A stretch of 64,000 nt of DNA from Deltaproteobacteria bacterium RIFOXYD12_FULL_56_24. Its GTDB lineage: Bacteria > Desulfobacterota > Desulfobulbia > Desulfobulbales > Desulfurivibrionaceae. The DNA is taken from contig MGTD01000047.1 of NCBI GenBank assembly GCA_001799285.1, positions 1-64,000 of the forward strand, given 5' to 3'. The stretch's first letter is position 1. The number at the start of each line of letters is the position of its first letter. The position numbers and the translations under genes were made by a program. Below, piece by piece: positions 7,815-33,221 of this stretch. The notes below the pieces were generated by a model that had not been told where the DNA came from, searched no databases, and saw only the letters and a list, made by a program, of their open reading frames with translations.

Positions 7815-8137
7815 CTCCGTCTCCTTCTTTTGTAAATGGCTGGTTGATAAAGTGGTTCTGCGTCTTGCCTGCCGATTGCTCCTGCCTTTATCAACGGAAG
7901 GCTTTCATAGCGTGGAAGGTCAGCACAAAGGCCGCGATGACCGCGACAAAAGCAACGCATTTCATTATCAGAGAAAAGATCACGATAAAAAGGATGCAGT
8001 TCGATATAGTTCTCTGTGCTCGTCGGCTAATCATTTTGTTCCCCTTCCCAGTCTATCCCCTTAGGTGTCCGCCCCCTGACTCTCTGCACAAGCAAACAAA
8101 TTGACTTGCCATATACCCAGCGGGAAAAATCAGAACA

Positions 8138-8635: not shown

Positions 8636-8707
8636 TCTTTAATCCTCCGAGATTTGATTTTGCATCCTTTCAAATAGTTAACTGGCTTCGGTTTGTTGAT
8701 CAGTACA

Positions 8708-11700
8708 GTCGTAATCCCTTCTGAGGTCAGGTCAATTCGGTCGGAGATTTTCTGGGCGGATGAATTGGCGGATTTCTGCGAGTCGTAATCCCTTCTGGAG
8801 TCAGGTCAGTCCGGTCACTGAAGAAATTTGTTTGGAGGCCGCCAAACAAGAGTCGTAATCCCTTCTGAGGTCAGGTCAATTCGGTCACCCTCCTGGTGCC
8901 CACCGGCTTGCCAGTCTCGAAATACGTCGTAATCCCTTCTGAGGTCAGGTCAATTCGGTCGCCGTGCCCGGTTAGGGAATAGCCCAGAAGAGTTTCGTCG
9001 TAATCCCTTCTGAGGTCAGGTCAATTCGGTCCGGGTCGGAATCAGGCGAGAGAATTGCGGCCACAAAAGTCGTAATCCCTTCTGAGGTCAGGTCAATTCG
9101 GTCACCGTGAACGCCAGGGATCTGCATGAGGCGCTGGAGGTCGTAATCCCTTCTGAGGTCAGGTCAATTCGGTCACCAGCAATTACCGAGAAAAAGAAAA
9201 CTGTCACCGACGTCGTAATCCCTTCTGAGGTCAGGTCAATTCGGTCCCCATGCCTGCGTGTACTGTTTCGCCCCATCCGCCACCTTGTCGTAATCCCTTC
9301 TGAGGTCAGGTCAATTCGGTCCAAACCCTGTAAGGAGGGAATGACCATGACGAAAAATGTCGTAATCCCTTCTGAGGTCAGGTCAATTCGGTCAGGAGGT
9401 CAAGCGGCTGCTCGGCAAGATGACCGGCCAGCAGTCGTAATCCCTTCTGAGGTCAGGTCAATTCGGTCGGGCATATCGCCCGAGCAATGCAGGGCAACTG
9501 TGTTGCGGTCGTAATCCCTTCTGAGGTCAGGTCAATTCGGTCACAATACGGAGAGATCATCAAACCCCAGCAGTTTCGTCGTAATCCCTTCTGAGGTCAG
9601 GTCAATTCGGTCGTTGTGGCTGTTTCGCTCCGTTGATAAGGTCGCGTCGTAATCCCTTCTGAGGTCAGGTCAATTCGGTCAAGCCGAAGAAGTCTGAAGA
9701 AGAAGCATGGCAGTGCTGTCGTAATCCCTTCTGAGGTCAGGTCAATTCGGTCTTGTCGGAGACGCGGACATCCGGGAAGCCCGGACGGTCGTAATCCCTT
9801 CTGAGGTCAGGTCAATTCGGTCTGCGGGAAGTTCTCGGGCCCGGGGAGCTGCTGCGGTGTCGTAATCCCTTCTGAGGTCAGGTCAATTCGGTCGTGGGGC
9901 GAACCTGCAAAGCCGGAGGACGCCCGTGTCGTAATCCCTTCTGAGGTCAGGTCAATTCGGTCACTGAGGTGCCGTTGGCATTGCCAGCGGCACTCCGTGG
10001 GTCGTAATCCCTTCTGAGGTCAGGTCAATTCGGTCGACGCCGGGTTCACGGAAATGGAGGGTGGTCCGATTAGGTCGTAATCCCTTCTGAGGTCAGGTCA
10101 ATTCGGTCGCTGGTACGCCAAGAGTGTCTGGCGTACCGGTATGGCGGTCGTAATCCCTTCTGAGGTCAGGTCAATTCGGTCGTTGGCCCAGATATACCCT
10201 GACTATTTGTTCGCCGTCGTAATCCCTTCTGAGGTCAGGTCAATTCGGTCAATGGTCCGCAGGAAGGGCATAGGCCAGAAATGGCTTGTCGTAATCCCTT
10301 CTGAGGTCAGGTCAATTCGGTCACCCCGGCCTTGTGGCCTATCTCCAGGAGATAGGCCGTCGTAATCCCTTCTGAGGTCAGGTCAATTCGGTCTGCTGCG
10401 GTGCGGCTGTTACCCCGGTGTATGATGTTGTCGTAATCCCTTCTGAGGTCAGGTCAATTCGGTCTGGCGGCACTCTCCCGAATCGCGGAGAGTGAAGGGG
10501 GTCGTAATCCCTTCTGAGGTCAGGTCAATTCGGTCCGTGCGGTAAGTTCTCTGGTCCGGGGGACTGCTGTGGAGGTCGTAATCCCTTCTGAGGTCAGGTC
10601 AATTCGGTCGCCTTGCCGATCGTTTTAAAAACGTCCGGCAAGGGTGACGTCGTAATCCCTTCTGAGGTCAGGTCAATTCGGTCCCCTTCGATGATGACGA
10701 ATGTGTGATCATCGGCTTTGAAGTCGTAATCCCTTCTGAGGTCAGGTCAATTCGGTCTGATAAACAGATTGCCATCGCACTGGCAACCGAAGCTACACCG
10801 TCGTAATCCCTTCTGAGGTCAGGTCAATTCGGTCCTACAGCAATGTTGAGGAAATGCGGGAACAGCAAGCGGTCGTAATCCCTTCTGAGGTCAGGTCAAT
10901 TCGGTCAATTATTACCCGCACCATATCAGTGACTTCAATAACGCTGTCGTAATCCCTTCTGAGGTCAGGTCAATTCGGTCTAACCACGGAGAACGGAAAT
11001 GGAAAAGAACTACAGTCGTAATCCCTTCTGAGGTCAGGTCAATTCGGTCAAAGTGAACCCCAGAGCCTCAAGGGCGGCTATATCCTCCCGTCGTAATCCC
11101 TTCTGAGGTCAGGTCAATTCGGTCGGCCAAATTTCAAGAAATAATCGAGGCCAGCGGCGGCACGTCGTAATCCCTTCTGAGGTCAGGTCAATTCGGTCGT
11201 TGAAACAACAGGTAAAACAACTGATTGAGAAGCGTCGTAATCCCTTCTGAGGTCAGGTCAATTCGGTCTCTTTATTGCTATTGCCAATGCAAAAGAGCCA
11301 ATCGACTCGTCGTAATCCCTTCTGAGGTCAGGTCAATTCGGTCCACAAGAAAAAGGAACGGTCTATTTCACCGCCGGGAGTCGTAATCCCTTCTGAGGTC
11401 AGGTCAATTCGGTCGCCATACCCTAGGGTAATATGATTAGGCCGGGATACAGTCGTAATCCCTTCTGAGGTCAGGTCAATTCGGTCAATTGCCTATGATC
11501 CAATCAAGGATTGTTATCTGTGTGTCGTAATCCCTTCTGAGGTCAGGTCAATTCGGTCATTATTGAAACGAATCAGATATGAAGAAAACGGTGGCGTCGT
11601 AATCCCTTCTGAGGTCAGGTCAATTCGGTCTCATATGGTACGCTATGAAATAATCCGCTGACCTGGCTGTCGTAATCCCTTCTGAGGTCAGGTCAATTCG

Positions 11701-14700
11701 GTCTCCTATTGAGACCGTCGATATGCTGATCATCTCAGTGTCGTAATCCCTTCTGAGGTCAGGTCAATTCGGTCAAGTTAGCCAAGATTTACAATAAATA
11801 ACTCCCAAAATGCGTCGTAATCCCTTCTGAGGTCAGGTCAATTCGGTCAGAATGTCTTTGCTGGCACCGATGGAGAGAAAGGAATCAACGTCGTAATCCC
11901 TTCTGAGGTCAGGTCAATTCGGTCACGCTACATTGTGGGATAAAGCTCTAGGTTACAGAGATGGTCGTAATCCCTTCTGAGGTCAGGTCAATTCGGTCGA
12001 ATTATCGATTGCTAAATGGATAAATGCTAAGGCGTCGTAATCCCTTCTGAGGTCAGGTCAATTCGGTCCTTTCCGCCCCCCGCATCATTACCCAAGACTG
12101 CCTCGCGTCGTAATCCCTTCTGAGGTCAGGTCAATTCGGTCCCTGGCTGTACGTGTAATCATCGATGAAGATGGTACGTCGTAATCCCTTCTGAGGTCAG
12201 GTCAATTCGGTCCGCAATGGAGGAAGTCGCCGTTCGACTCCGCAACGGGGTCGTAATCCCTTCTGAGGTCAGGTCAATTCGGTCTGTATAAATAGAAAAT
12301 CATTTGTATAAGGAATCATCGTCGTAATCCCTTCTGAGGTCAGGTCAATTCGGTCATGCAAGAACGCGCTCTTGCAATGAATCAAAAGTTTGGTCGTAAT
12401 CCCTTCTGAGGTCAGGTCAATTCGGTCTTTAAATCTGATTCTTGAAACGGTCCCGGACGGTATCAGTCGTAATCCCTTCTGAGGTCAGGTCAATTCGGTC
12501 ATCAGAAAATCGGGAAAGACGGTAAAAAGTACCGGATGTCGTAATCCCTTCTGAGGTCAGGTCAATTCGGTCTGTTTTGCATGGGTGGAGCAAAGAGTGT
12601 TGACAAAGTCGTAATCCCTTCTGAGGTCAGGTCAATTCGGTCGCCTCGGTTTCGGCTACAGTCCAGTGGTCGGGCGGCTCGGCGTCGTAATCCCTTCTGA
12701 GGTCAGGTCAATTCGGTCGTGTTCTATCTACTCTCAAAATAGCACCACGGGTAAGTCGTAATCCCTTCTGAGGTCAGGTCAATTCGGTCGCCAGAACGAT
12801 AACCGTATAGGCATTTTGTTGATTGCTGTCGTAATCCCTTCTGAGGTCAGGTCAATTCGGTCTACTGACCAGCATTTGTGATATCTCGACGATCTAAGGG
12901 AGTCGTAATCCCTTCTGAGGTCAGGTCAATTCGGTCCGCCCGGGTAAATTCCTCCGCAGGTATGCGCCGGAGGTCGTAATCCCTTCTGAGGTCAGGTCAA
13001 TTCGGTCGAAAAGAAATCATTGCGATAATGAACCGCAAATACAATTGTCGTAATCCCTTCTGAGGTCAGGTCAATTCGGTCGACGGAAATGGCAGAGGGA
13101 AGAAGAAAGAAGAGAAAGTCGTAATCCCTTCTGAGGTCAGGTCAATTCGGTCGACCGGGTGCGGAATAATAACTATCATCCTCCGGAAGGGAGTCGTAAT
13201 CCCTTCTGAGGTCAGGTCAATTCGGTCATTTGTGACGGGGGCAACCTTAGCGGATCAACGATATCGTCGTAATCCCTTCTGAGGTCAGGTCAATTCGGTC
13301 TACCTCACCCACCTGGCGGTTAAGCGCGCGGTGGCGGCGGGTCGTAATCCCTTCTGAGGTCAGGTCAATTCGGTCAGCGTCAGCCGCGCCGGGCATTGAC
13401 GAGAGTTTGGAAGTCGTAATCCCTTCTGAGGTCAGGTCAATTCGGTCCATTGACGAGAGTTTGGAAAACGGTGCTGTCCGGCGTCGTCGTAATCCCTTCT
13501 GAGGTCAGGTCAATTCGGTCTGCGGGTAACAGTGGGTCTAATGGCGGAGTGACCAGTTGTCGTAATCCCTTCTGAGGTCAGGTCAATTCGGTCGACGGCC
13601 ACGATCAGCCGCTGTCTGGGGTGTTGTCGAGGTCGTAATCCCTTCTGAGGTCAGGTCAATTCGGTCCTGCTGGAGGCCGAGAGTATTGGCAAGGCGTTGC
13701 GGGGAGTCGTAATCCCTTCTGAGGTCAGGTCAATTCGGTCAAAAACGCCAAAACTCAGGTTGACATGGATCGTATTTGGGTCGTAATCCCTTCTGAGGTC
13801 AGGTCAATTCGGTCATGTCTCGGAGACGACGGGCAGGGGAACGAACTGTGGTGTCGTAATCCCTTCTGAGGTCAGGTCAATTCGGTCCGTGGGTGTTCGC
13901 ACGGTCGAAAAATGGCGGCAAGTCGTAATCCCTTCTGAGGTCAGGTCAATTCGGTCTAACTGCGCCAGCTCACGGTTCGATCGACCTGCTTTGGTCGTAA
14001 TCCCTTCTGAGGTCAGGTCAATTCGGTCAGGGTGCTTTCCCCGGACTCAACAGTCGAGGTAATCTTGAGTCGTAATCCCTTCTGAGGTCAGGTCAATTCG
14101 GTCGATATTGGCAACGAATTGACTGAAAAAGCCGTTGCGTCGTAATCCCTTCTGAGGTCAGGTCAATTCGGTCGCTGTTATCTTTGATAATCGAATATCG
14201 TGGATGCCATTGGTCGTAATCCCTTCTGAGGTCAGGTCAATTCGGTCTCGTAGAAAATGCTCCCGTAAAACCTGAGATGACCGGTCGTAATCCCTTCTGA
14301 GGTCAGGTCAATTCGGTCAATATCAACGGGCGCAAAAGAAGTATAAGGCGGAGTCGTAATCCCTTCTGAGGTCAGGTCAATTCGGTCGAAAATGCCCCAG
14401 TAAAACCCGAGATGACCGCATCTGTCGTAATCCCTTCTGAGGTCAGGTCAATTCGGTCCGAAGCAAACTAAGCATAGACTGTGAAACCCACGGCGTCGTA
14501 ATCCCTTCTGAGGTCAGGTCAATTCGGTCGGCAATGTTATGGCAATCACCTATAACGGCCACCGTCGTAATCCCTTCTGAGGTCAGGTCAATTCGGTCAA
14601 CGGGCGCAAAAGGCATACAAGGCAAGTACCCTGTCGTAATCCCTTCTGAGGTCAGGTCAATTCGGTCCCTATAATGGCCACCGGCAATAAGGCATGGTGG

Positions 14701-17700
14701 CGCAGTCGTAATCCCTTCTGAGGTCAGGTCAATTCGGTCTATTTAGGTGGAATTATGAACGCTAAAAATATCGTGTCGTAATCCCTTCTGAGGTCAGGTC
14801 AATTCGGTCATTTCCATGACAAATCAATTGCCCTGCAGGCCAAGCTGGTCGTAATCCCTTCTGAGGTCAGGTCAATTCGGTCTATTTCTTGTGGGCGGCA
14901 GATGCATCCATATTTGCTTCAAGTCGTAATCCCTTCTGAGGTCAGGTCAATTCGGTCCGCAGAGAGGCGGAAAAAATAGCCGGTGATCCTCGTGTCGTAA
15001 TCCCTTCTGAGGTCAGGTCAATTCGGTCCATAAAAAAGAGGCAATAACGCCTCGTGCCAACAACGTCGTAATCCCTTCTGAGGTCAGGTCAATTCGGTCT
15101 ACGGCGGCACCATCAATGCACCCCAGGCGCACCTTGTCGTAATCCCTTCTGAGGTCAGGTCAATTCGGTCGTGCCGGGTTCGTGGTGTGGATGGCCAGCA
15201 ACACCGGATGTCGTAATCCCTTCTGAGGTCAGGTCAATTCGGTCGAGAGTGCCATGACCATCATTTACGAGCCCCGTGGAAAAGGTCGTAATCCCTTCTG
15301 AGGTCAGGTCAATTCGGTCAATAACGCTGCCCACAAACAGTCGGTTTTATCCGGTCGTAATCCCTTCTGAGGTCAGGTCAATTCGGTCTCGTGCCAACAA
15401 CAAGGAGAGTGCCATGACCATCATTGTCGTAATCCCTTCTGAGGTCAGGTCAATTCGGTCAGTACAACAACTCCTATAGCGACGCATACGATACCGTCGT
15501 AATCCCTTCTGAGGTCAGGTCAATTCGGTCGCACGGAAAACACCACCATCACCGTCGGGGATGAGGGTCGTAATCCCTTCTGAGGTCAGGTCAATTCGGT
15601 CTGCGATTGGAGTGGCGATGTTGGCGATGGGTTGGGGCTGTCGTAATCCCTTCTGAGGTCAGGTCAATTCGGTCGGCGGCAAACCTGTACAAAGGCTGCG
15701 CCCATGCCTGTCGTAATCCCTTCTGAGGTCAGGTCAATTCGGTCTGACTGGCACGGGAAAACAAATTACCTCCGGTGTTATACCGTCGTAATCCCTTCTG
15801 AGGTCAGGTCAATTCGGTCAGCTGCAGGAGGAGATCAAGCGGATCCGCGTCCAGCGTCGTAATCCCTTCTGAGGTCAGGTCAATTCGGTCACCGTGAATG
15901 GTCGCCTAAAGAAAAACTTGGCAGGTCGTAATCCCTTCTGAGGTCAGGTCAATTCGGTCCATGGTCACAAGCTGGACATCCAGCTTGCGAGACGCATGTC
16001 GTAATCCCTTCTGAGGTCAGGTCAATTCGGTCAAGGGGCTTGCCGCTAGGCTGGCAAGCGAAGCGGAGTCGTAATCCCTTCTGAGGTCAGGTCAATTCGG
16101 TCTTGCCCATGCTGATGATGCCTTGCGCAACCGTATGAGTAAGTCGTAATCCCTTCTGAGGTCAGGTCAATTCGGTCATGCTTCTCTCTACCCTGAAGGA
16201 CTGGTCGTGCGCAAGTCGTAATCCCTTCTGAGGTCAGGTCAATTCGGTCGGATGCCATGGGCGACATATCGCCCATGTTATGGCAATGTCGTAATCCCTT
16301 CTGAGGTCAGGTCAATTCGGTCCTCTCTACCCTGAAGGACTGGTCGTGCGCAAGTTGTCGTAATCCCTTCTGAGGTCAGGTCAATTCGGTCATGATGCCT
16401 TGCGCAACCGTATGAGTAAGCGCCGGAAAGGTCGTAATCCCTTCTGAGGTCAGGTCAATTCGGTCTTATCGAAGAGGACCTCAAGGCGCTTGACACGGCG
16501 CGGAGTCGTAATCCCTTCTGAGGTCAGGTCAATTCGGTCCAAGGTTGCCTACTCTCAATACCAGAAAGATCAAAAGAAGGTCGTAATCCCTTCTGAGGTC
16601 AGGTCAATTCGGTCACCAGAAAGATCAAAAGAAGTACAAGTCGGCCACCCTTGCGTCGTAATCCCTTCTGAGGTCAGGTCAATTCGGTCGGTCGAGTACA
16701 CGGAAAAGAACGCCGCAACCATTGCGGCGTCGTAATCCCTTCTGAGGTCAGGTCAATTCGGTCCAGGGTAGAGAGTGAGCTGGCCACACCGATGGAGTCG
16801 TCGTAATCCCTTCTGAGGTCAGGTCAATTCGGTCTTGAAACGTACAGGGCTGAATACAAGGCCTGGCAAGCTGAGTCGTAATCCCTTCTGAGGTCAGGTC
16901 AATTCGGTCTACAAGGCGGCGTACGCCGAGTACCAACGGGCACAAAAGGTCGTAATCCCTTCTGAGGTCAGGTCAATTCGGTCAATTTGCTCATTCACGG
17001 TATTCGGTTGCCAGCAACCTTGTCGTAATCCCTTCTGAGGTCAGGTCAATTCGGTCCGGGCAACCGGAGAGCGTTTGGCTGGCTCTGACGAAGTCGTAAT
17101 CCCTTCTGAGGTCAGGTCAATTCGGTCCAAATCAGGCGCGCCTGTTAGAGGCTCAGATACTTGAGTCGTAATCCCTTCTGAGGTCAGGTCAATTCGGTCA
17201 TGAGCCAGCTATTGCATACCGGTTGGCGTGTGATGTCGTAATCCCTTCTGAGGTCAGGTCAATTCGGTCTTACAATTTTCACCCGTCTATCAGCGAGATG
17301 GGCGGAAAGGGTCGTAATCCCTTCTGAGGTCAGGTCAATTCGGTCAGCTACGGAGTATACAAAAGAAATATTTCCAGGTGTCGTAATCCCTTCTGAGGTC
17401 AGGTCAATTCGGTCGAAATGCGCTTGAAACAATACAAGCACCTGCAAATTGGTCGTAATCCCTTCTGAGGTCAGGTCAATTCGGTCTTATATAAGGAGAA
17501 TCAAAATGAAAAATCAAATAAGGTCGTAATCCCTTCTGAGGTCAGGTCAATTCGGTCTATAATCAGGCCAGCAACAAAAGAGGACTTCAAGGAGGTCGTA
17601 ATCCCTTCTGAGGTCAGGTCAATTCGGTCATGAGCCAGCTATTGCATACCGGTTGGCGTGTGATTGTCGTAATCCCTTCTGAGGTCAGGTCAATTCGGTC

Positions 17701-18416
17701 TGCGCTTGAAACAATACAAGCACCTGCAAATTGACGAGTCGTAATCCCTTCTGAGGTCAGGTCAATTCGGTCACGGTAACCGATGGAAATTATCGGATTA
17801 TCGATACGGTCGTAATCCCTTCTGAGGTCAGGTCAATTCGGTCCGTTGAACTTACCACTTGTGATAAGGATTGGGGCGGCACTGTCGTAATCCCTTCTGA
17901 GGTCAGGTCAATTCGGTCTTCGTCTGTGATAATTATGACGAAGCATTGAAACGTCGTAATCCCTTCTGAGGTCAGGTCAATTCGGTCGTATTCACAAATT
18001 ATGGGATTGGGATTAGTGTCGTGGAGTCGTAATCCCTTCTGAGGTCAGGTCAATTCGGTCGTTTTGGGTGATCTTGTAATGTGCCAAAATGGTTTCGTCG
18101 TAATCCCTTCTGAGGTCAGGTCAATTCGGTCACCTTGAAACTTATTATAATGATGGGCCTAAATAGTCGTAATCCCTTCTGAGGTCAGGTCAATTCGGTC
18201 ATCGCTGCCAGAGCATCAACACCACGCCCGAGAGCGTGTCGTAATCCCTTCTGAGGTCAGGTCAATTCGGTCGGAGCCGGACCGGGGCCAAACGGCAATC
18301 CTATCATGTGTCGTAATCCCTTCTGAGGTCAGGTCAATTCGGTCCCCTTTGTGCTGGCAGCGATCAAAGAGTTTGATCGCTGTCGTAATCCCTTCTGAGG
18401 TCAGGTCAATTCGGTC
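8708..18416 (-). CRISPR. Large CRISPR array: about 135 repeats of GTCGTAATCCCTTCTGAGGTCAGGTCAATTCGGTC (35 nt) and about 134 spacers of 33-41 nt
   Basis: Repeat starts were hand-indexed from 8708 to 18382, mean period about 72.2 nt. Transcription is inferred leftward: leader next to cas2, degenerate repeat at the far end (8782-8816). crRNA-sense repeat is GACCGAATTGACCTGACCTCAGAAGGGATTACGAC. Confidence 0.99.
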
Positions 18417-18671
18417 CGCGGTTTTCGTTCGCCTTTGTCGCATCAGCGTTCAAACCGGTCAATCCGCAGACCTTCCGGTTATGTGTAATAAAAAATCGGC
18501 AAATCCTGATTTTCATGCTCATCACCATCCTTTTCTTGTTGAAATTACATAGTTTTCAGGTTTTCGCAGACCTTCGGCAACGACTTAGTGAAAAATATAA
18601 ACATTTCAGTCGGTTGTCAAAGAGCATCAAAACCGTCGACAAGGTCTGCGAAACATGGACAAACTGCCCAA
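18417..18671 (-). promoter_or_regulatory. CRISPR leader region
   Basis: About 255 bp AT-rich non-coding stretch between cas2 and the leader-proximal repeat, containing three copies of CGCAGACCTT. Confidence 0.65.
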
Positions 18672-18950
18672 TCACAGTAGCACATACTCATGATCCGGGT
18701 CAATATATTGGCCAAGACCGATAATCTCTATCTTGTGCAGGCAGCGTTCGCACAGGGGGATGTATTTAACTCCGTCTTCCTCAAAATCGATCTCCCCGGC
18801 AATCCTGGCCCGTAGTTCGGCAAAACTCCGTTCGGTAACGTCAAGCTCAAACTTTGATTTCTGCACCCGGTGCCCGTAATCCTTGAGCACCTTCGCCACC
18901 CGGTTGAGCCTGCGGGCATCGGCGATGTCGTAAACCGCGAGAACCCGCAT
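18672..18950 (-). CDS. cas2: CRISPR-associated endonuclease Cas2 (copy A, array-proximal)
   Basis: MRVLAVYDIADARRLNRVAKVLKDYGHRVQKSKFELDVTE... Cas2 fold signature; ATGA overlap with the upstream cas2. Confidence 0.92.
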   Translation of the reverse strand: MRVLAVYDIADARRLNRVAKVLKDYGHRVQKSKFELDVTERSFAELRARIAGEIDFEEDGVKYIPLCERCLHKIEIIGLGQYIDPDHEYVLL

Positions 18951-19225
18951 CAGAGCACCTCCCAATCCAGGCGGCTGAAGGAAACGCCCTGGCCCTGGAT
19001 GATGGCCTTGTCCATGCAGGTTGCGCAGATCCGGTAGATGCGGACTGCGTCCTCCTTGAGATTGAGGTTGTCCCGGCAATAGAATCGTATTTCCCGAATC
19101 TCCCGGCTGTCCAGACGGCACTCGAATACCGAGCGTTGGCTGCGAATACCCAGCTCCTTGAGAAACCCGTGAAATCTCTGCCGCCGTTTGTTGCTGACGA
19201 TGTCGTACACCACCACTGTGTTCAT
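18950..19225 (-). CDS. cas2: CRISPR-associated endonuclease Cas2 (copy B)
   Basis: MNTVVVYDIVSNKRRQRFHGFLKELGIRSQRSVFECRLDSRE... Cas2 signature. Confidence 0.92.
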   Translation of the reverse strand: MNTVVVYDIVSNKRRQRFHGFLKELGIRSQRSVFECRLDSREIREIRFYCRDNLNLKEDAVRIYRICATCMDKAIIQGQGVSFSRLDWEVL

Positions 19226-19231
19226 GGCGCT

Positions 19232-20395
19232 CTACTTCAGCAGCATGGGTTGGTAAACCTTGAGCGAGCCTTCGATCACCTTGCGGTACATGCCCGCCTG
19301 GGCGACAAGGGCATCGGCGTAGGTGATGCTTCTCTCCTCCGGCGGGTAATGGAATTCGGTGGTCATCTTGCGCTCGAAATTTTCCACCACCCGGCGGAAG
19401 GCATCGCCATTGAGCTTGACCGCTGGCTTACCGTCGGTGTCTTCCAGGTCGAGATCGTGCACGGTTTCGCCTCCCATGCGCTGAGTGGGCAGGTCAAACT
19501 GCTCCCGGCTGTCGAGATCGGCCATGTTGCCATAGGGATCAACCCCCACTATCGGGGCGGATTCCGACTGAGGCTCATCCGTCTGAGCCGGTTTAGGATA
19601 TTCAAGGCGGAAGTCATCCTGCTGAAGGATCTTGAGATTGAACAGAGAAAGACATAAGGTGTCGGCGATGATGACCCGGAACTCTTCCATCAGATCCATC
19701 ACCAGCGAGTGGCGGCCATAATCCGGCACATGCAAAAAGGCGGGGTGCGGGTCGAGATTCGCCTGGCGGATGGCGGCATAAACCCGGTTGAAGAGGAAGG
19801 TGTAAAGCAGCGAAAGCACCGCGTTCACCGGATCGGTCGGCGGTCGGCGCACCCGGCGGGCAAAGCCGTAATCCTGTTGCAGTCCCCAGCGCAGGGCGCC
19901 GAAATAGATGGCGCTGCCCCGCCCCTCGTAGCCGCGCAGGGACTCAATGGAACCTGCTTCGGAGATTTTGTCGTAAAGGGCGCGGATTTCGCGGGCTGCC
20001 AGTTTAGGCTCTTTCCGGTCTCTGGTGCGGCTGATCCGCATGAGCAAGGTGACCATGTTCATCAGCTTGCCGGTTACCAGTTGTCGGCAGAGCTCGATGC
20101 CGAAGGCCTGGTCGTCGAGCAGGGTAAACTGGCGCTTGCGGAGCATGACGTTTTTGGGTTCCGGGGTGGCGAAGCGGCCTTGGTAGCGGCCATCCTGCGA
20201 GCAGAAAACCGTGTCCACCCCATGCCGGAGCAAAACCGCCCTGGCAGCCGGGGTAAGATCAATATTGCCGAACAGCACCACCTGGCGGAGTTTTTCGACA
20301 AAGAGAGTGTGGTAGGTGTCCTCGCCTTTCTTGACCAGCAGGTGGCGGCCTTCGCGGACCACCTTGGCACCTTGGGTACGGATGTAGATGTGCAT
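19232..20395 (-). CDS. cas1: CRISPR-associated endonuclease Cas1
   Basis: MHIYIRTQGAKVVREGRHLLVKK; GNIDLTPAARAVLLRHGVDTVFCSQDGRYQGR; LRGYEGRGSAIYFGAL; DPVNAVLSLLYTFLFNRVYAAIRQANLDPHPAFLH; MDLMEEFRVIIAD. Confidence 0.96.
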   Translation of the reverse strand: MHIYIRTQGAKVVREGRHLLVKKGEDTYHTLFVEKLRQVVLFGNIDLTPAARAVLLRHGVDTVFCSQDGRYQGRFATPEPKNVMLRKRQFTLLDDQAFGIELCRQLVTGKLMNMVTLLMRISRTRDRKEPKLAAREIRALYDKISEAGSIESLRGYEGRGSAIYFGALRWGLQQDYGFARRVRRPPTDPVNAVLSLLYTFLFNRVYAAIRQANLDPHPAFLHVPDYGRHSLVMDLMEEFRVIIADTLCLSLFNLKILQQDDFRLEYPKPAQTDEPQSESAPIVGVDPYGNMADLDSREQFDLPTQRMGGETVHDLDLEDTDGKPAVKLNGDAFRRVVENFERKMTTEFHYPPEERSITYADALVAQAGMYRKVIEGSLKVYQPMLLK

Positions 20396-20471
20396 GGGCT
20401 TACCCCAACCTGGATTTTTTTCAGGAAACATGCCCGGTCGCCATTGAGCATCCGGGCATGTCAATCAGATA

Positions 20472-22016: not shown

Positions 22017-23138
22017 TCAGGCGAGCCACGCTTTGAGCCGCTCACCAAGCCGCAGAGCCTCCTTGCCATCCACCAGCTCGATTTTCATCTTCTTCGCTCG
22101 TTCCCGGTCTTCATCCCGCAGGTTGCGGGCGGAAACCAGCATCCCTCTGCCGAAAAGACCGCCGGCCCGATCTTTAAGGGAATCCAGTTCGTTCAAGGCC
22201 TCGGTGAACTTGCTGCCGCTGGCGGTCTGCCGTTCGGGGTTCGAGGCTTTGCAGGAAACAAGGTGCAACTGGTTGCGGTGGGTGAACAGGACATCGAATT
22301 CGTTTTCGGTTTGTTGCCTGCCCTTGCCATCCCACCGCACCTCGACATTCATCTCCAGGTCAAGCCCCTTGATTCCGAGCCGTCGCACCATTTCATAGGT
22401 GTATTCCTCCAGCCAGCCGCCGGCGCAGAAGAACATGTTTTCCTTATTGGCGATATTGAGGGAGTTGCCGCTGACCAAAGTGGCAACTCCGCACTGGCCG
22501 AGCAGACCGGCAAGGTTTTCGGCGCCCTCGCCAAGAGCATTCAGGGTGATGTTGGCGTAGCCTTGCTTTTCCTTGTTGAGGGAGCTGTTGAGCCTGGCCA
22601 GCAGACTGTCGTTTTCGATGAGCAATTTGGCCAAGGCGGTAAGATGGGGCCGGCGGATTTCCGCTCTGCTTGGCGGCTTGCCCTCGTTGCTGGGGGGGAT
22701 ACCATAGGCGGTGAGATAGTCGCGGATACCGAGCAGATTTTCAGTCAGGGGTTGCTCCCGGTGTTTCGGGGCCAGTTCCAGCAGGCGGTGATGTTCGGTG
22801 TCGCAATAGATGATCCGTTGGTTGGCGAAAAAGACCTGATAGGCGGCCAAGGCGGTGATCTTGGTACCGCCGGTGACATTGAGGGTCAGGGTGTTGTTGC
22901 CGTGGTGTTCGGCGACAAGTCCATCGCAGACCTCAGTCACCATCTCGAAGTCGTAGGCATCGATTGTCTGCATGCTCACCCTGATGCCTCTGGGCTGGGC
23001 AATTTTTCTCAACCGCTCCGCCTGGGGGAGCATCTCCTGCGAAACCAGGAAAATGACTTGCTCCGGCTTCTCGATCAGCAGCGGCAGCAGATTGGGGATG
23101 GGCTGGCCGGAGATCAGGCAGACATGAGTTTCAGGCAT
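22017..23138 (-). CDS. Can2/Card1-like CARF plus PD-(D/E)XK nuclease (DUF1887 family), putative cOA-activated effector
   Basis: LTLNVTGGTKITALAAYQVFF (CARF) and ENEFDVLFTHRNQLHLVSCKAS (PD-D/ExK nuclease core). Confidence 0.85.
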   Translation of the reverse strand: MPETHVCLISGQPIPNLLPLLIEKPEQVIFLVSQEMLPQAERLRKIAQPRGIRVSMQTIDAYDFEMVTEVCDGLVAEHHGNNTLTLNVTGGTKITALAAYQVFFANQRIIYCDTEHHRLLELAPKHREQPLTENLLGIRDYLTAYGIPPSNEGKPPSRAEIRRPHLTALAKLLIENDSLLARLNSSLNKEKQGYANITLNALGEGAENLAGLLGQCGVATLVSGNSLNIANKENMFFCAGGWLEEYTYEMVRRLGIKGLDLEMNVEVRWDGKGRQQTENEFDVLFTHRNQLHLVSCKASNPERQTASGSKFTEALNELDSLKDRAGGLFGRGMLVSARNLRDEDRERAKKMKIELVDGKEALRLGERLKAWLA

Positions 23139-23968: not shown

Positions 23969-24373
23969 TTATCCTTCATACCGCCGGAAGCGGACATGGC
24001 TGAAGGTATGGGTGATCTGAACCGAGCCATCTTCCAGATGTTGTTCTACGGCTTTGCGGTCGGTAGTTGAATAGATCGGAGTAAGCTCCAGCCGGAAGGC
24101 CTCGCTCACCATCCTGAAAGTGGCGCCGAACTCCCCCTGGATCAGAACGAAATCGCCTGGCTTGGCTACACCAGCAAGCCAGTCTGCCACCGGGGTCAGC
24201 CAGTCGGCAAGGTTGTCGGGATCGGACGGCACTTGGGACCAGATTGTTTGGATCTCCGGCGGCGGCTCGACAATCCGCTGCACCCCGAGGGAAGCGCGGG
24301 CATCGGCCTCCTGGGGCGCGGTGAGGCGGTGGTTGAAGAGGAGGATGAGGGAAGGTCCAACAAAAGCCATCAT
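23969..24373 (-). CDS. csx20: Csx20-like CRISPR-associated protein, putative ring nuclease
   Basis: LILLFNHRLTAPQEADARASLGVQRI...GDFVLIQGEFGATFRMV...TPIYSTTDRKAVEQHLEDGSVQITHTFSHVRFRRY resembles Csx20 from memory. ATGA overlap with the upstream CARF-HEPN gene. Confidence 0.72.
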   Translation of the reverse strand: MMAFVGPSLILLFNHRLTAPQEADARASLGVQRIVEPPPEIQTIWSQVPSDPDNLADWLTPVADWLAGVAKPGDFVLIQGEFGATFRMVSEAFRLELTPIYSTTDRKAVEQHLEDGSVQITHTFSHVRFRRYEG

Positions 24374-25608
24374 GCCATCCGGGGGAATCGCGGGGCCGCG
24401 TCCGTTACCATTGCACCCAGACCGACCACAAATTCCCGCAATTTTTCATAGGTTGTTTCTTTTGCAGACTGGAAACCATGGGCCAGATAGGAGTCATTCC
24501 GCGCCTTCTGGAGATCCAAAAACCTTCCTGCGCCTGTGGTAAAGGCCTTGCCAAGGGGATCGCCCAACTCCTGCAAAAGCCGGAAGGCCGGAGTCTGCGG
24601 CAGTTGAATCAAGCCATGGCGCTCATTCTTGTGCTTGGCAAGGTATTCTTCCCGCAGGGTTTCGGGGAGCTGCTCCGGCCGGACATCGGAAACATTGATG
24701 CTGTAACCGACCCGCAGCCGCTGCTGGGCCAGCATCTCCACCAACCGGTACAGACGAAGCACCGCATCGTCAACCTTGCCCTCGGCGAATCGTCGCTCCG
24801 CATTGGCGAAGAGGTCCAACACCAGTTCCGGACTCGGTATTTTCCCCCGCTCGGATGAAGTCACGATTTTCTCAAGTACCGGCTGCAACACAAGGCAAGC
24901 GCCGGCAAATCGGGCGATCCACTCTTCGTGATCCTCGGCCAGTTCCTGCAACCTGGATTTTTTGAACAATTCCTGGGCATCGACGTGCCGGAAAAGATCC
25001 CAGCAGTGAAAGGCATCGGCAATCAGGGCCAACTTGCGAAACACGTTCTTGCGGGTGCTGGCGTTTTCGGCAAGACCATTCAGAACATCCCGGCAGGCCT
25101 TGAACTGGCAGGAGTTGAAGAACTGCGCTGCCTGCCGCTTCTCCCGCACGGCCATGAAATCCCACGGGTTGACGTGGGTATGGATTTTCTCGTGGCCGCT
25201 TTCGACAATCCCTACCCCGCCCTTGTTGCGACGGGAGCCGCCGACATAGGAAAAAAAATATCCCTGTTCGATGGCGGCCAGGGCCAGGGCAACAGACATG
25301 TTTTTGGTGCCGCCGGTGTAATCGACCACCACCTGATCTTTTGCATAGCCGCCGGCATGGATACGTTTTACCGCATTTTCCGCTTTTTGGTGGCATTCGA
25401 GCAGGTCGTTTTCATTATCGACCAGCTCGGTGGCAAAGCGGATACCCCCTGCCGTATCCCCCAGCAGATCACATACCTTGACGCTGATATGGTTGGTTCC
25501 TTGGGAGGCAAAAAAACAGACAAATTCGGGTTGGTGGTGCTCGATGCTTTTCAGCAGCGGCTCCGGGGTGCCGCCCACGGAAATAAGCATGGCCTTGATG
25601 GTAGTCAT
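24370..25608 (-). CDS. TIGR02710/Csm6-like CARF-HEPN ribonuclease, putative cOA effector
   Basis: CARF motifs VVDYTGGTKNMSVALALAAIEQG; C-terminal HEPN R-x6-H motif RNDSYLAH. Confidence 0.85.
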   Translation of the reverse strand: MTTIKAMLISVGGTPEPLLKSIEHHQPEFVCFFASQGTNHISVKVCDLLGDTAGGIRFATELVDNENDLLECHQKAENAVKRIHAGGYAKDQVVVDYTGGTKNMSVALALAAIEQGYFFSYVGGSRRNKGGVGIVESGHEKIHTHVNPWDFMAVREKRQAAQFFNSCQFKACRDVLNGLAENASTRKNVFRKLALIADAFHCWDLFRHVDAQELFKKSRLQELAEDHEEWIARFAGACLVLQPVLEKIVTSSERGKIPSPELVLDLFANAERRFAEGKVDDAVLRLYRLVEMLAQQRLRVGYSINVSDVRPEQLPETLREEYLAKHKNERHGLIQLPQTPAFRLLQELGDPLGKAFTTGAGRFLDLQKARNDSYLAHGFQSAKETTYEKLREFVVGLGAMVTDAAPRFPRMA

Positions 25609-26647: not shown

Positions 26648-26903
26648 TCTCCCGATCCTCGCGCAGGTATTGCTGGGCCATGCCGGTTGGGACGGCAAGC
26701 GGGAACTGCTGGTTGGTTTTCCGCTTTTTCGTTGCGCTGGTTTGTTGTCTTTCCAGCAATTCACGATGAACCTGTTGACAGTCATGCAGGGACAATTCGC
26801 CCCGCTGGTATTTTGCATACCTCCTGTCGAGCTCTTCTTTTTGCCATTCGGGAATGGGTGAGGGGTCAGGTACTCCGGTTTTGGTTTTTTCGCAGTGATT
26901 CAT
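26640..26903 (-). CDS. Small addiction-module-component-like protein
   Basis: IPEWQKEELDRRYAKYQRGELSLHDCQQVHREL; ATGA overlap with the csm5 stop. Confidence 0.5.
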   Translation of the reverse strand: MNHCEKTKTGVPDPSPIPEWQKEELDRRYAKYQRGELSLHDCQQVHRELLERQQTSATKKRKTNQQFPLAVPTGMAQQYLREDRENG

Positions 26904-28387
26904 GCTTCTCCGAGGATGGTCTTGATTTTCTGGACTTTTTCCCATTGCTTTTTGGAACATTGCTTCTTGCTCCATTTTTGCTGGTCCGTGATCCATCTTT
27001 CCTTAAAAGCCTGTGCCAAGTTTTTTTGCTCCTCCTGGGATGCTGTTTCTATTTTTCCCCAGCACGTTGCATCCGGGTCCTGTCCTGCCGCCTGCGACTT
27101 TGCAATAGAATCTCCGCGAATTATGGCAACGCACTGCTCGACTTCGCTCATTTTTCTCCAAGTTTCCAGTTCATTTTTTTGCTGCTGCCCCTGCTCGATC
27201 TTGATCTGGTGCGCTCGTTTTTCCTCCTGCACCTTGATGGCCTCGGCACGGCGCACTTCCTCTTTACTGGTAAACTTAAGCCGTATCCAGCCCATGGGGA
27301 GCGCGGCATCGCCTGTTACCGCAACGCGGCGGCTTTTGGGAAAAGGGAAGTTGAGGTATTTAGTCGCCAATTTGAGTTTGTTGCGCACCTCGCTGGTCAA
27401 CAACTTCGGGGCGATAAGTTCGCCGGTCATGCCTTTCCAGCCGCTGCCCCAGGCAAACTGCACGATGGCTTCATTCTCCTGTAGATTCTGGTGATCCTGC
27501 TTGAGTTTGGTATAAAAATTCCTCATGCCGTCAATGCCGTCTCCGGTTTTATCGCTGAGAAAATTAAGTTCGCTGTCCAGGGTTTTATCGGTTCTCTTTC
27601 GCAGCGCCTCCAATAGCCAAACAAGGGTGAGATCGGCCTTGAAATTGAAGGTTTCCTTCCCTCTAGCTTGGGCAATGAGAAAATCATCAAAGGAAATCTG
27701 TCCGGTGGCGGTTGCGCTCTGATTGAGTTTTTCAATCCAGATATTCCAAGGCTTGCGAACAAATCCCGTGTTGTTGGTCAGCCTTGTCACATAGGCGTTC
27801 TGCACCTGGATATCCTGCGGGGAAAAAGTAAAGTCGGCCACGGTAAGGGAACGCATCAGATTCATTTTCGCGTCTTTTCCCAGAAGATTAGCACACAGGG
27901 TGCTGTCGGCAAACTTGACGTTCACTTTTTCCTGCTTTTTTAGTTTTTCGAGAACCTGACTCACCGGATTGGTTTGATCGTCGTCGGCAAGCCGGGCAAG
28001 TATTGCCGTGCGAAATACCCCCTTAAGCGATGAGCCGGATATGATGGGTCGGCCGAAACCATCGCGGATATGTCTGTTGATGTCCCTCGGTTCATTATGG
28101 ACCGGAAAACTGAAGGAATGCACAACCGCCTCATTGATGTTGATGTTGTTGCTCCGTAGCCAGTGGGTGAGCTGCCCATCTTCCATGGCTGCCGCAAAGG
28201 ATTCAATATGGCTGCCGCCAAGCTGCTCAACCATGCCAAAGAGTCGTTTATGGTCGAAAACCCTAGCCCTGTTGCCCTCGCAGAGAAAGTCAAAATTATT
28301 GACGTACTTTTCTCCGTTGCCGATGTGGACTGGAGTGAGAATCTGCATCTCACAATGGAAGGCCGTTCGAATATTTTGAAAATTCAT
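26900..28387 (-). CDS. csm5: Type III-A RAMP protein Csm5
   Basis: EMQILTPVHIGNGEKY; GRPIISGSSLKGVFRTAILARL; 495 aa; position after csm4. Confidence 0.9.
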   Translation of the reverse strand: MNFQNIRTAFHCEMQILTPVHIGNGEKYVNNFDFLCEGNRARVFDHKRLFGMVEQLGGSHIESFAAAMEDGQLTHWLRSNNININEAVVHSFSFPVHNEPRDINRHIRDGFGRPIISGSSLKGVFRTAILARLADDDQTNPVSQVLEKLKKQEKVNVKFADSTLCANLLGKDAKMNLMRSLTVADFTFSPQDIQVQNAYVTRLTNNTGFVRKPWNIWIEKLNQSATATGQISFDDFLIAQARGKETFNFKADLTLVWLLEALRKRTDKTLDSELNFLSDKTGDGIDGMRNFYTKLKQDHQNLQENEAIVQFAWGSGWKGMTGELIAPKLLTSEVRNKLKLATKYLNFPFPKSRRVAVTGDAALPMGWIRLKFTSKEEVRRAEAIKVQEEKRAHQIKIEQGQQQKNELETWRKMSEVEQCVAIIRGDSIAKSQAAGQDPDATCWGKIETASQEEQKNLAQAFKERWITDQQKWSKKQCSKKQWEKVQKIKTILGEA

Positions 28388-29400
28388 GGGTTACCTCCTT
28401 CAGCCATCGGCAGACAAAAGGCTTTGCCGCACCGGTAGACATTATGAGGAATATAGGCGGAACGCTCCAGCACGAGGGGAATCTGTCCCTCTGGCGCAAA
28501 TGGCAGAAGCGAACCCTCAGCCAGCATCCAGCAGTCAGCCCGGCGGAATTGGTGCGCTCCGTGACTACCGGCATGACCGGATCGACGCGCCAGAGAGTAG
28601 GCGCTTTGTTCGCCGACCAAAACGCCTCGTTCAATTTCCTGTCTGGTGGGATGATAGAGTGAAAGAAGAACATAGGCAGCGGTGGTATCCGGCGATTGAA
28701 ATTCAAAAGGTGCAGCAGTGAAGGAGAAACAACCGCGACCGATGGAACGGTCTGCGCCCAACCCTGAGTCGCCAAGCAGTCTCAACGCCACCTCAAAGCG
28801 TTTCCGTATTTCTTGATTGTCAAAGGATGCCAGAAAGAACAGACCGGAGTTGTTGTCGAAAAACTGGTCCGTGCAGTAAAAAAATGCCCCTTCGCGCACA
28901 CCGCCGCAAATCTGATCCACTGCCACACGGGGACGTTGCGCAACCTTTAGAAAAATTTGGGTTTCTTTCTCTACTGCTTGTAATCTGGCCGGAGGCGGAA
29001 AGACTGACTCTTCCGTTATATCAGCAAGGATCAGTTCTGACCCAGCAGAAACCTTTCTAAACAACGGTTCGGATAAGAACCGAATTTTTTTCAGATCTTT
29101 CAGATCAAACGGCAGTTGTCCGGTATCCATGTGGGCGACTACGTCCATAATCCTGTCGAAAGAACCGATTGGGACCGGAAAATAGCGACACCCACCAATA
29201 ACAGGAAAACCGCTACTTACCGTAAAGCCTGGTTCTCGGCATAACCCCTCGGGTTCGTCATCATAGAGCAGCAGCAGTTTCTGCACAAGCGCGGCCCACA
29301 GGGTGTCGGAGCGTACCATTTGCTCAACTCGTTCCTGGCCGATACCTTCAAGGCCGAAGTGAACGGGTGTGAAAAAAGTGAGTTGATATGCCCACATCAC
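28384..29400 (-). CDS. csm4: Type III-A RAMP protein Csm4
   Basis: LTFFTPVHFGLEGIGQERVEQMVRSDTLWAALVQ; LGDSGLGADRSIGRGCFSF. Confidence 0.9.
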   Translation of the reverse strand: MMWAYQLTFFTPVHFGLEGIGQERVEQMVRSDTLWAALVQKLLLLYDDEPEGLCREPGFTVSSGFPVIGGCRYFPVPIGSFDRIMDVVAHMDTGQLPFDLKDLKKIRFLSEPLFRKVSAGSELILADITEESVFPPPARLQAVEKETQIFLKVAQRPRVAVDQICGGVREGAFFYCTDQFFDNNSGLFFLASFDNQEIRKRFEVALRLLGDSGLGADRSIGRGCFSFTAAPFEFQSPDTTAAYVLLSLYHPTRQEIERGVLVGEQSAYSLARRSGHAGSHGAHQFRRADCWMLAEGSLLPFAPEGQIPLVLERSAYIPHNVYRCGKAFCLPMAEGGNP

Positions 29401-30188
29401 GAGACCTCACCCGTAGATCTGAAGAACTGGCCGAATTTCCCTTTAAAACTGGAATTTCTTCGATCCTTGTTGGTGCAGTAATCTTCCGCAGTACGTTCAG
29501 TTACTGCTTTGAGATTAAATTGAACCTGGCCGTACCCCCTGGTTCCCTGTCCGCCAAGATAGTCATCCTCCACCAGCATCAATCCTTGATTGAGAAGATC
29601 AATAAAAGCATCTGCCCGTGTGGTACCTGCACCATTTTTCACATCGACATTGTAAATATCAAGAACCATATCGAGCTTGAACCGTGCCCCGGCTGGTACC
29701 CGTTCAAAATTTCGTGGATTTGCCTGGGAGGTCAACCTGTCGATGGAGACCTCGGTCTTGATCTCGGTGCAGTGCATGTCAGTGTTTTCCGAGTTAGCCA
29801 GCTCGTCCACATTGATTAGCGAACCATCCCGGACCGTGAGACGAGTGGGTGCGTAATCAAGGCTTGCTCCGCCCTTGTCGGCTGCGAAACCGAACAGTTG
29901 CACAACATCCTCTTCAGGATTTTCACAGAGTTTACCCTCCCAGTTACCTTTTTTGTCCTGTTCCGGTCTGATCAGACCAAGGCTTTTCTCCAGGAGCGAA
30001 CGCATTTTTCCTTTCAGGGATGAACCAGGGATATAGGGCAGGTTGGTCAGGGGGTTGCGGACAACCACCTTATCGGCACCGCCTATGGAAAGGCCAAGGG
30101 AGGAGCCGCCCACATGCATGCCGGTCAGGAGAACAATTTCACCCTCAATAAAAACTTTTTTCTCAAGTTTCAATATATGTTCAGTCAT
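29397..30188 (-). CDS. csm3: Type III-A backbone RAMP Csm3
   Basis: LLTGMHVGGSSLGLSIGGADKVVVRNPLTNLPYIPGSSLKGKMRSLLE; LGGQGTRGYGQVQF. The Asp in IGGAD matches the catalytic position. Confidence 0.95.
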   Translation of the reverse strand: MTEHILKLEKKVFIEGEIVLLTGMHVGGSSLGLSIGGADKVVVRNPLTNLPYIPGSSLKGKMRSLLEKSLGLIRPEQDKKGNWEGKLCENPEEDVVQLFGFAADKGGASLDYAPTRLTVRDGSLINVDELANSENTDMHCTEIKTEVSIDRLTSQANPRNFERVPAGARFKLDMVLDIYNVDVKNGAGTTRADAFIDLLNQGLMLVEDDYLGGQGTRGYGQVQFNLKAVTERTAEDYCTNKDRRNSSFKGKFGQFFRSTGEVS

Positions 30189-30199
30189 GATAATGCTCC

Positions 30200-30670
30200 T
30201 TATTTTCCGCCATGGGCGCGGTGATAGGCGAGAATTGCTTCAAAAAGCTTGCAGAAGTTATTGAACCGGACAGATTCTGTTTCCTTGTCACCAGCGCAGA
30301 CAGCGTCGATGGCCCACGTGAGCCGCTGTTTGAGTCTCTCCAATCCTGTTTTATTATGCCTTCCTGTTGCATATGCCAGAAATGGTTTCAGCATGAGAAA
30401 GTCAATTTGCTGTTTCTGCTCCTTGATTCCCCCTTTTGCTTCGATAATTTTCATCTTTGAAAAAACCTGCCGTATTTGTGAGGTCGTCACTGATTCATCC
30501 ACTGTTTTCCTCGGTGCGACTTCGACTTTTTTGAGCGTTTTGGCAATATATTCGCCAAATTTCTGAGCCTCTTCGATAGCTGCGTTGTCCGGGCCATGCG
30601 TTACCCATGATTCCACCTGCGCTTTTTTTAAAGCCTGGCTGTCTGCATATTCATGTCTTCCATCAAGCAT
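30200..30670 (-). CDS. csm2: Type III-A small subunit Csm2
   Basis: 156 aa; TTSQIRQVFSKMKIIEA...LKPFLAYATGRHNKTGLERLKQRL; position between csm3 and cas10. Confidence 0.88.
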   Translation of the reverse strand: MLDGRHEYADSQALKKAQVESWVTHGPDNAAIEEAQKFGEYIAKTLKKVEVAPRKTVDESVTTSQIRQVFSKMKIIEAKGGIKEQKQQIDFLMLKPFLAYATGRHNKTGLERLKQRLTWAIDAVCAGDKETESVRFNNFCKLFEAILAYHRAHGGK

Positions 30671-33221
30671 TTTTCTTCTCCTTTTTCTCTGTCCGAAGTC
30701 TCAACTCACACCACCTACCCAATAACCCGAGCAGCGTAATGCCGGTTCTATCGGTTTCTGCAACCTTACAGAGAATGAATTGCTGAATTGAAGCAATTTC
30801 ATCCTTGATCCCTTTGTTACGCTCCACAAATCTTGCCAAACTATAGACCATCTGCCAGCGCCACTTTTCAGCCTCCAGTTGCTTTTCAATGGCAGCCATG
30901 GTCATCCCTGATTGTTTTAGGCGCTCCCTGCTTCCCTGCCAGGATGCGGCAATATCAAGCAGCCGCCGTAGCAAAGGCGCGTTTGCCGGGTCTTCCAACA
31001 GGCTCATTAAGTTATTAAACTGATTCACAATATCCTTAAACTCCTTCCAGTGCATCGGTGTGTCGAGGAAGGTGAAAGAAGATTTACGCACCGGGGCATG
31101 TCCGTTCAACCGGGTTTCATGATGCTTTGCCCGGTGTTCCGCTTCACCGGCCATTTCGGCGCTCTTATAAATGGGGAACTTTCCGCCGGTTATGACCATG
31201 CCGCCGGAAAGAGAGAGCGACCTGTTATTGCAACAAAACTGCTCAAATCGATCATGGATGGTAAGGGCAAGTTCGGGGAGAGCATCCCAAGCGCCAAGAA
31301 GGAACAGGTCGTCGCCCCCGGCGTAGACCACCGTTACCCGCTCCGCTAAGTCCGGATCGTTGCGGATTATGCCAGGCAAGAGGCCGCTGAAAAAAAGGTT
31401 AAGCTGCCAACTGAGGGTGGTGATCCTGCCTAATGAGTGGAATCTTTGAGAATGCTCTGTTTCATGCCGGTAGTTTGTCAGCCCCTCGCTGAAAATCTTG
31501 CCAAGGTTGTCCACATCCATGCGCAATACGCCGAGCCGTTTAACACCCATGGAAAGATCGGCTATTTCATCGAAAGTACGGTCAGCAAAGGCGTGGGTTG
31601 CAGCTACGAGATATGGCGAGGAGTTGACGATGGCACTATTCATTTGCCGGGGAATGGAATGAAAATTTGGATCATTGAGGGACCAAAGTTGGGTCCTGGA
31701 ACCGGTTACGGACAAGGGTAGGTCCTTCATAAACCAGATGTGCCGGTTGATTTTCCTGTTCGGCAATTTGAGTTGCAGGCGGAAGGTGGGTCGCTCACCG
31801 CTCACCGTATCCGTATCAGCGATGAGGATATAGTGAGAATTTGCCAGCTTGCGTCCGGCTTCCTCCATCTGATTACATGCAACACAATGGCCCGTATCTC
31901 TGGGAACTGATCTGTGGCACACCTCGCAGGTCCCTGCATCGCCACTCTTTACTCCAAACAGCAGGTCATAATTTTCGCTTGCAAGATCGGCGTAGCGTTG
32001 CCTGTCCTGATAGACAAGCTGCCGGGTCAAATCATCCCATATCTGGTAAAGTGTGCGGCCGCTTTGCCGGGTAAGATCTTCTCCAGAAATCGGGATGTGC
32101 CCCATTCTCACAAAAATGTCGCCATTGAATGCTGAAAATAGCTCACTGTTAACTTTACCGGTCAGCTCCTCAAGGGTCTTGATTACATTCTCATGGTTGG
32201 GCAACAGAATGTAGAATTTTCCTCCGCTTGCATAGAGGATGTTGGCCGGGGTTAGACCAAAAATATCGACAAACTCTCTGGCAAGAAGATCTGCGAGTAG
32301 TTGGATGTAGAATGATCGCCCTTTCAGGGTTTTGTATGCTCCCTTTGACGAAATTTGATAAATGAAGTTCTGTATACCACTCAGGTCACCGCAGAAGAGA
32401 AGGTATTTCTGGGGACGCCTGTCTTCCACCTTCTCCAACGAAAGCGTGTTCGTAGTCGCATGGTAGAAATACATGCAGGCTGCCAAAGCTGCTGTGGCCT
32501 TTTGGTGGTCAAAGAGCGATACATCCGGCATTTCCTCTTTTCTTGTCGATGCTGGCAGGCACCATTGCCAGGCACGACAGATCTCAAGCAGAGTTGAAAA
32601 ATGATCCACAATGTCAAGACCGAGCTCTTGGTTTGGTCGAATCGCTTTGACAAAATTCACCCAGTGCTGCCGATAGTCGGCTTGTACCTGTTCCGCAACA
32701 TACTCATCCGCTGGGACCGGTGGAATGTGTTCTTGCACGTTCGTACCATAAAGACAACCTTCTTCCCTGATTCGGAAGCGCCAGTCTTCCACTGGGTCGT
32801 CGGAATATCTTTTGAGACAAACCCTGGACATGATACTGATAAGCGGGGTTTTGCTCTTTTTTTCTCTGCCGTGGGTATCATAGGCTGATGCATCATCTCC
32901 TTTAGCCCGTTCATGGCCGGAGGAAATCCGGTCAGCTTCGGCTATGATTGTTTCATAGATATTGCCTTTGCGGGGTTTGTGGTGCCTTGTGGCCATATTG
33001 AGAATCGTGCATTCGCGGTCACCCCCATAAGATTGGCTTAACCGTTCCTCCGCAAAAAGCTGCTTCAGGGCCAGCTCTGTGTGATGAGCATGAGCGTAAC
33101 GGTACTCTTGCTGCACCATATCCTGGTCGGCTGGTTCAACAGCGTATGCTCGTTCAGCAAACTTGCCGAGGTCATGAAACATTCCTGCAATTGATATGGC
33201 CTTCAGAATTTTTTCGTCCAT
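30663..33221 (-). CDS. cas10: Cas10/Csm1 with HD and Palm (GGDD) domains
   Basis: IAGMFHDLGKFAERAYA (HD), CEVCHRSVPRDTGHCVACNQMEEAG (Zn), VTVVYAGGDDLFLLGAWD (GGDD). Confidence 0.96.
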   Translation of the reverse strand: MDEKILKAISIAGMFHDLGKFAERAYAVEPADQDMVQQEYRYAHAHHTELALKQLFAEERLSQSYGGDRECTILNMATRHHKPRKGNIYETIIAEADRISSGHERAKGDDASAYDTHGREKKSKTPLISIMSRVCLKRYSDDPVEDWRFRIREEGCLYGTNVQEHIPPVPADEYVAEQVQADYRQHWVNFVKAIRPNQELGLDIVDHFSTLLEICRAWQWCLPASTRKEEMPDVSLFDHQKATAALAACMYFYHATTNTLSLEKVEDRRPQKYLLFCGDLSGIQNFIYQISSKGAYKTLKGRSFYIQLLADLLAREFVDIFGLTPANILYASGGKFYILLPNHENVIKTLEELTGKVNSELFSAFNGDIFVRMGHIPISGEDLTRQSGRTLYQIWDDLTRQLVYQDRQRYADLASENYDLLFGVKSGDAGTCEVCHRSVPRDTGHCVACNQMEEAGRKLANSHYILIADTDTVSGERPTFRLQLKLPNRKINRHIWFMKDLPLSVTGSRTQLWSLNDPNFHSIPRQMNSAIVNSSPYLVAATHAFADRTFDEIADLSMGVKRLGVLRMDVDNLGKIFSEGLTNYRHETEHSQRFHSLGRITTLSWQLNLFFSGLLPGIIRNDPDLAERVTVVYAGGDDLFLLGAWDALPELALTIHDRFEQFCCNNRSLSLSGGMVITGGKFPIYKSAEMAGEAEHRAKHHETRLNGHAPVRKSSFTFLDTPMHWKEFKDIVNQFNNLMSLLEDPANAPLLRRLLDIAASWQGSRERLKQSGMTMAAIEKQLEAEKWRWQMVYSLARFVERNKGIKDEIASIQQFILCKVAETDRTGITLLGLLGRWCELRLRTEKKEKKNA

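Follow-up and report, generated by a model that had tools for sequence, protein, structure and literature searches.

Evidence for repeated sampling of related mobile elements by a type III-A CRISPR array

The long CRISPR array of Deltaproteobacteria bacterium RIFOXYD12_FULL_56_24 belongs to a type III-A system and is very probably the product of repeated sampling of related mobile elements, in the course of which guides matching mRNA were selected. The array lies in a window of 64,000 nucleotides, the whole stretch of DNA that was analysed (contig MGTD01000047.1, positions 1 to 64,000). The evidence comes from a peptide family encoded by several of its spacers, from the orientation and clustering of homologous spacers, and from a comparison with a type I-C system of the same genome.

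The type III-A locus and its array

The locus is a complete type III-A system, in which Cas10/Csm1, Csm2, Csm3, Csm4 and Csm5 are encoded in one operon, and the array is accompanied by Cas6 and by the adaptation genes, those of Cas1 and two Cas2 (Table 1). The two cas2 genes are different from each other and stand in tandem (18672-19225) beside the single cas1. Judging from the genes present, cyclic oligoadenylates would signal to the CARF effectors. Two PIN-domain proteins and one DUF3368/PDC-S70 protein are also encoded among the type III accessory genes (21578-21988, 23165-23557 and 25641-26117).

Table 1. Features of the type III-A locus and the six spacers of the peptide family (window coordinates)
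Feature	Position	Strand	Remarks
CRISPR array	8708..18416	-	134 identical 35-nt repeats, GACCGAATTGACCTGACCTCAGAAGGGATTACGAC in crRNA sense
Spacer 77	14319..14352	+	YQRAQKKYKA; + read as sense of target mRNA
Spacer 81	14599..14632	+	RAQKAYKAST
Spacer 108	16540..16579	+	KVAYSQYQKDQKK
Spacer 109	16615..16654	+	QKDQKKYKSATL; exact 20-nt overlap with spacer 108
Spacer 112	16835..16874	+	ETYRAEYKAWQA
Spacer 113	16910..16948	+	YKAAYAEYQRAQK
Leader	18417..18671	-	promoter-like TTGACA-17-TATTTT at 18620-18592, - strand
Cas2, first copy	18672..18950	-	E 5e-24
Cas2, second tandem copy	18950..19225	-	E 1e-21
Cas1, without reverse transcriptase domain	19232..20404	-	E 7e-80
CARF-PDDEXK nuclease, accessory effector	22017..23138	-	E 8e-93
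Csx20	23969..24373	-	E 5e-47
Csx1-type CARF-HEPN RNase	24370..25608	-	E 5e-112
Csm5	26900..28387	-	
Csm4	28384..29400	-	
Csm3	29397..30188	-	
Csm2	30200..30670	-	
Cas10/Csm1	30663..33221	-	E 3e-136
CARF protein, CARF5 group	34924..36111	-	matches CARF+WYL model, E 2e-93
Cas6 crRNA-processing endoribonuclease	36039..37019	-	E 4e-92

The repeats are separated by 133 intervals of 33-42 nt each, with the exception of one 109-nt interval that contains a decayed repeat. At the right end of the array the leader and its promoter-like site adjoin cas2 and cas1; the decayed repeat and an interrupted stretch are found at the left end. The position of the leader and the promoter-like site on the right, and of the decayed repeat on the far left, indicates transcription from the - strand, running from right to left. 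As a consequence, the crRNAs are the reverse complement of the spacers as read on the + strand, and would hence be antisense to the coding sequence. The repeat-derived 5' tag of the crRNA is expected to be AUUACGAC. Of 57 related genomes just one contains the array repeat, in one copy that has 3 mismatches.

The region 7040-8742 contains a solo repeat, together with a spacer-like 37-mer and a repeat fragment of 11 nt, set apart from the main array by about 1.6 kb. This gap holds two glycine-rich, membrane-like ORFs on the - strand (7386-7814 and 8138-8635), for which no match was found in Pfam or PADLOC, and it resembles an insertion, with GTCGTAATCCC at its flanks.

A peptide family and the strand of the type III spacers

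Spacers 77, 81, 108, 109, 112 and 113 encode a single peptide family, Y[KR]xxYxx[YW]QxxQKxYK[AS]. The family had been recognized in the sequence-only reading, whose coordinates and translations proved correct throughout; all six spacers agree in both strand and frame, and a six-frame scan of the array spacers detected the motif in six of them, always on the + strand. In dinucleotide shuffles of all spacers (n=300) the motif was found 0.03 times on average and once at most, a comparison that somewhat overstates the significance because the motif was defined after the peptides had been seen. Of the spacers, which had been described as nucleotide-distinct, 108 and 109 share exactly 20 nt and represent the same locus, not independent variants.

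Spacers 77 and 113 have TAY CAA CGG GCR CAA AAG in common, and both of their differences are synonymous (2/2). The same pattern is found at other loci, where synonymous differences amount to 3/3 in s76/s78, 4/6 in s15/s25 and 1/1 in s110/c39 (s and c denote type III and type I-C spacers, respectively). Since the differences between the copies are partly synonymous in the frame of the motif, it is homologous coding sequence that has been sampled, and the earlier suggestion of repeated sampling of homologous genes is to this extent borne out. A seventh member of the family is the type I-C spacer c60 of contig C34, which encodes VESYKMAYTEY.

The six spacers might instead have sampled different repeat units of one gene of one element, if that gene contains internal coiled-coil repeats. 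The peptide family is coiled-coil-like, and several of the spacers align over part of the motif only, as this explanation would have it. Divergent homologous pairs are, however, found elsewhere (s76/s78, s15/s25, s99/c62 and c26/c66), which means that several related elements were sampled anyway. Internal repeats could account for part of the pattern but are an unlikely source of the family as a whole, and the sampling of a gene from several related elements is the preferred reading.

In the array as a whole, homologous or overlapping pairs of type III spacers with E up to 0.02 have the same orientation in 17 of 17 cases, a few of which (s9/s98, s107/s122 and s80/s104) are weak. Eight exact overlaps of at least 13 nt are unambiguous, and no match to the opposite strand reaches 13 nt. 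The + strand is purine-rich in 96 of the type III spacers and purine-poor in 28 (p 6.5e-10), which by itself is no proof of sense, because the sense strand of the host's own genes is not rich in purines. A codon model trained on host genes takes + as the sense strand in 85 of the 132 type III spacers (p 0.001); after calibration on host genes, this corresponds to about 77% of the spacers being sense on +. A ribosome site with ATG is found in five spacers on the + strand and in none on the - strand. Counts of open frames per strand were uninformative. The evidence from orientation, strand and codons agrees, and points to type III crRNAs that would be antisense to the target transcripts.

A near-uniform strand of homologous spacers would also result if a reverse transcriptase had produced the spacers from RNA templates, since they would then be sense by origin. 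The Cas1 of this locus, however, lacks a reverse transcriptase domain and so is not an RT-Cas1. The sole reverse transcriptase match in the genome, a short fragment, lies on another contig close to its start, and the 6 kb inspected there showed no cas genes. According to a review (PMC9048733), moreover, type III systems with an active reverse transcriptase are unbiased in strand outside rRNA genes. An origin of the spacers from RNA is extremely improbable.

The co-resident type I-C system and the search for the target

The same genome encodes a type I-C system with Cas3, Cas5, Cas8c/Csd1, Cas7, Cas4 and Cas1. Its repeats, 76 on contig C34 and 61 on contig C25, enclose 132 distinct spacers, in which no strand bias was detected either by purine content (58 spacers with a purine-rich + strand vs 67) or by the codon model (+ as sense in 69 of 132). 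Six of these spacers, c60, c62, c16, c39, c42 and c54, fall on loci of type III spacers: c62 matches s99 at 26 of 28 nt, c16 matches s119 at 24 of 24 nt on the opposite strand, and c39, c42 and c54 pair with s110, s83 and s13, respectively. Unlike the pairs within the type III array, the III/I-C and I-C/I-C pairs are of mixed orientation. The I-C spacers, several of which hit the same loci, are unbiased, and the strand bias therefore belongs to the type III array rather than to the targets.

The I-C arrays contain exact duplicate spacers (c5/c9, c26/c29, c33/c57 and c47/c58; L028, 12415-17500, and L038, on contigs C34 and C25) and, between the two contigs, one near-duplicate (c72/d6). On both contigs the array ends break inside a repeat next to unrelated sequence.

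Bias of a type III array towards the strand that matches mRNA, in a genome that also encodes a type I system, has been described before (PMC8482600, 2021). The I-C system of Moraxella is biased, whereas that of the present genome has no detectable bias, and cas1-cas2 genes of its own accompany the III-A system studied here. DNA- and RNA-targeting systems occur in one genome also in Marinomonas mediterranea, where type I/III redundancy has been described (PMC5576922) and the pair is I-F plus III-B; here it is III-A and I-C, both arrays fall on the same loci, and the two repeats differ.

The type III array gave no protospacer among phages and plasmids (blastn against INPHARED and PLSDB), nor did a 20-aa peptide in tblastn or exact and codon-degenerate patterns in IMG/VR; the I-C array of C34 gave weak hits only against phages. 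The target gene was not found in the 97 genomes, the bacterium's own and its relatives, that were searched with the peptide. The joined peptide, which is a chimera built for searching and not a real sequence, found nothing in PHROGs or Pfam. A phage origin, which the sequence-only reading had suggested alongside mobile elements, and a position of the protospacers in one orthologous gene consequently gained no support from the viral, plasmid and genome collections searched.

Several candidates were rejected. Hits in IMG/VR (L012-L014 and L039-L043) were chance matches, and six hits from a scan of GTDB genomes were TPR and other unrelated proteins. The single strand and the hairpins had prompted the idea of an RNA phage as the target, which was discarded because the DNA-targeting I-C system hits the same loci.

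As a general rule, CRISPR spacers come from phages. On the basis of this rule and of the two systems that recorded them, rather than of a sequence match, the target elements are probably phages. In the spacer chain 87/92/90 a ribosome site precedes MTIIYEPRGK, a sequence that may resemble the start of SplB-like radical SAM proteins, which some phages carry.

Focal sampling, hairpins and the origin of the strand bias

The spacers of the eight exact type III overlaps are on average 3.1 array positions apart, vs 44 expected by chance, and the overlaps cluster within six array positions. Overlaps within six positions correspond to an effective target of about 4.8 kb on one strand per episode; with a target of 40 kb, 0.95 overlaps would be expected (P of 8 or more, 7e-6). 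The clustering fits bursts of acquisition from a narrow region, and a small element equally well. The overlapping pairs, located at 13376-17737, are 64/65, 76/78, 80/82, 87/92, 102/106, 103/105, 108/109 and 120/124. The newer spacer is shifted downstream in the sense strand in 8 of 9 shifted pairs, a small sample in which 90/92 is the exception; one further pair is unshifted.

Perfect stems of at least 8 bp are present in 7 of 132 type III spacers, vs about 0.4% of random host and viral segments (p ~1e-6), an enrichment that was found after the fact; the host segments are from the window, and the viral ones from a small background, 44 kb of unrelated viral contigs (seven loci). The I-C spacers contain such stems in 2 of 132 cases. 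Eleven spacers (19, 22, 24, 26, 27, 50, 100, 101, 104, 110 and 133; 10109-18381) have perfect inverted repeats of 7-10 bp, which is several-fold above the host and viral background; the I-C arrays show less. The enrichment agrees with the published uptake of hairpin-rich DNA by III-A systems, the adaptation of which, according to the review (PMC9048733), favours structured coding-strand DNA.

The excess of hairpins over the I-C spacers and the preference described in the review argue for a bias in uptake. In this view the III-A Cas1-Cas2 would prefer, within transcribed regions, coding-strand DNA that is displaced or forms hairpins, and little would be added by selection. Long hairpins are, however, absent from most spacers here, and in Thermus the spacers acquired without selection come from both strands, selection having been shown to be the cause of the strand bias (PMC7515739). 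Uptake bias as the main cause is rather doubtful, and we infer that selection makes most of the strand bias, part of which could be set at uptake. A reading in which the III-A array is a record of biased uptake, favouring transcribed coding-strand DNA that forms hairpins and coming back repeatedly to the same few kilobases during an episode, possibly in a primed-like manner, is quite improbable.

According to the preferred explanation, repeated sampling with selection of mRNA-matching guides, the cells would have repeatedly encountered a group of mobile elements that are related to one another and most likely phages. Cas1-Cas2 would have taken up fragments of their DNA, and a single episode would often have yielded several from the same few kilobases. 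Because Csm/Cas10 recognises RNA, the surviving cells would have been those in which the new spacer produced a crRNA antisense to a transcript, so that the array would have kept spacers with the coding strand on +. The same gene (YK-AY--YQ--QK-YKA) would have been recorded from several variants.

The coding-strand bias of type III spacers has been published across many genomes (PMC8482600). The type III system of Thermus thermophilus challenged by phage phiFa (Artamonova 2020, PMC7515739) resembles the present one in its adaptation free of reverse transcriptase, its transcript-complementary spacers and its narrow phage region; the record described here is, in contrast, long and natural. For type III, earlier publications describe both the coding-strand bias and focal sampling; the array adds no new phenomenon but is a well-resolved example from nature of ordinary type III immunity. 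Whether type III adaptation has a substrate preference of its own or involves priming is an open question, to which the overlap clusters and the hairpin enrichment are relevant. One cell has kept two CRISPR memories of the same elements, of which the RNA-targeting one is biased and the DNA-targeting one is not, and the I-C arrays serve as an internal control for the published view that a filter for complementarity to mRNA acts on type III spacers.
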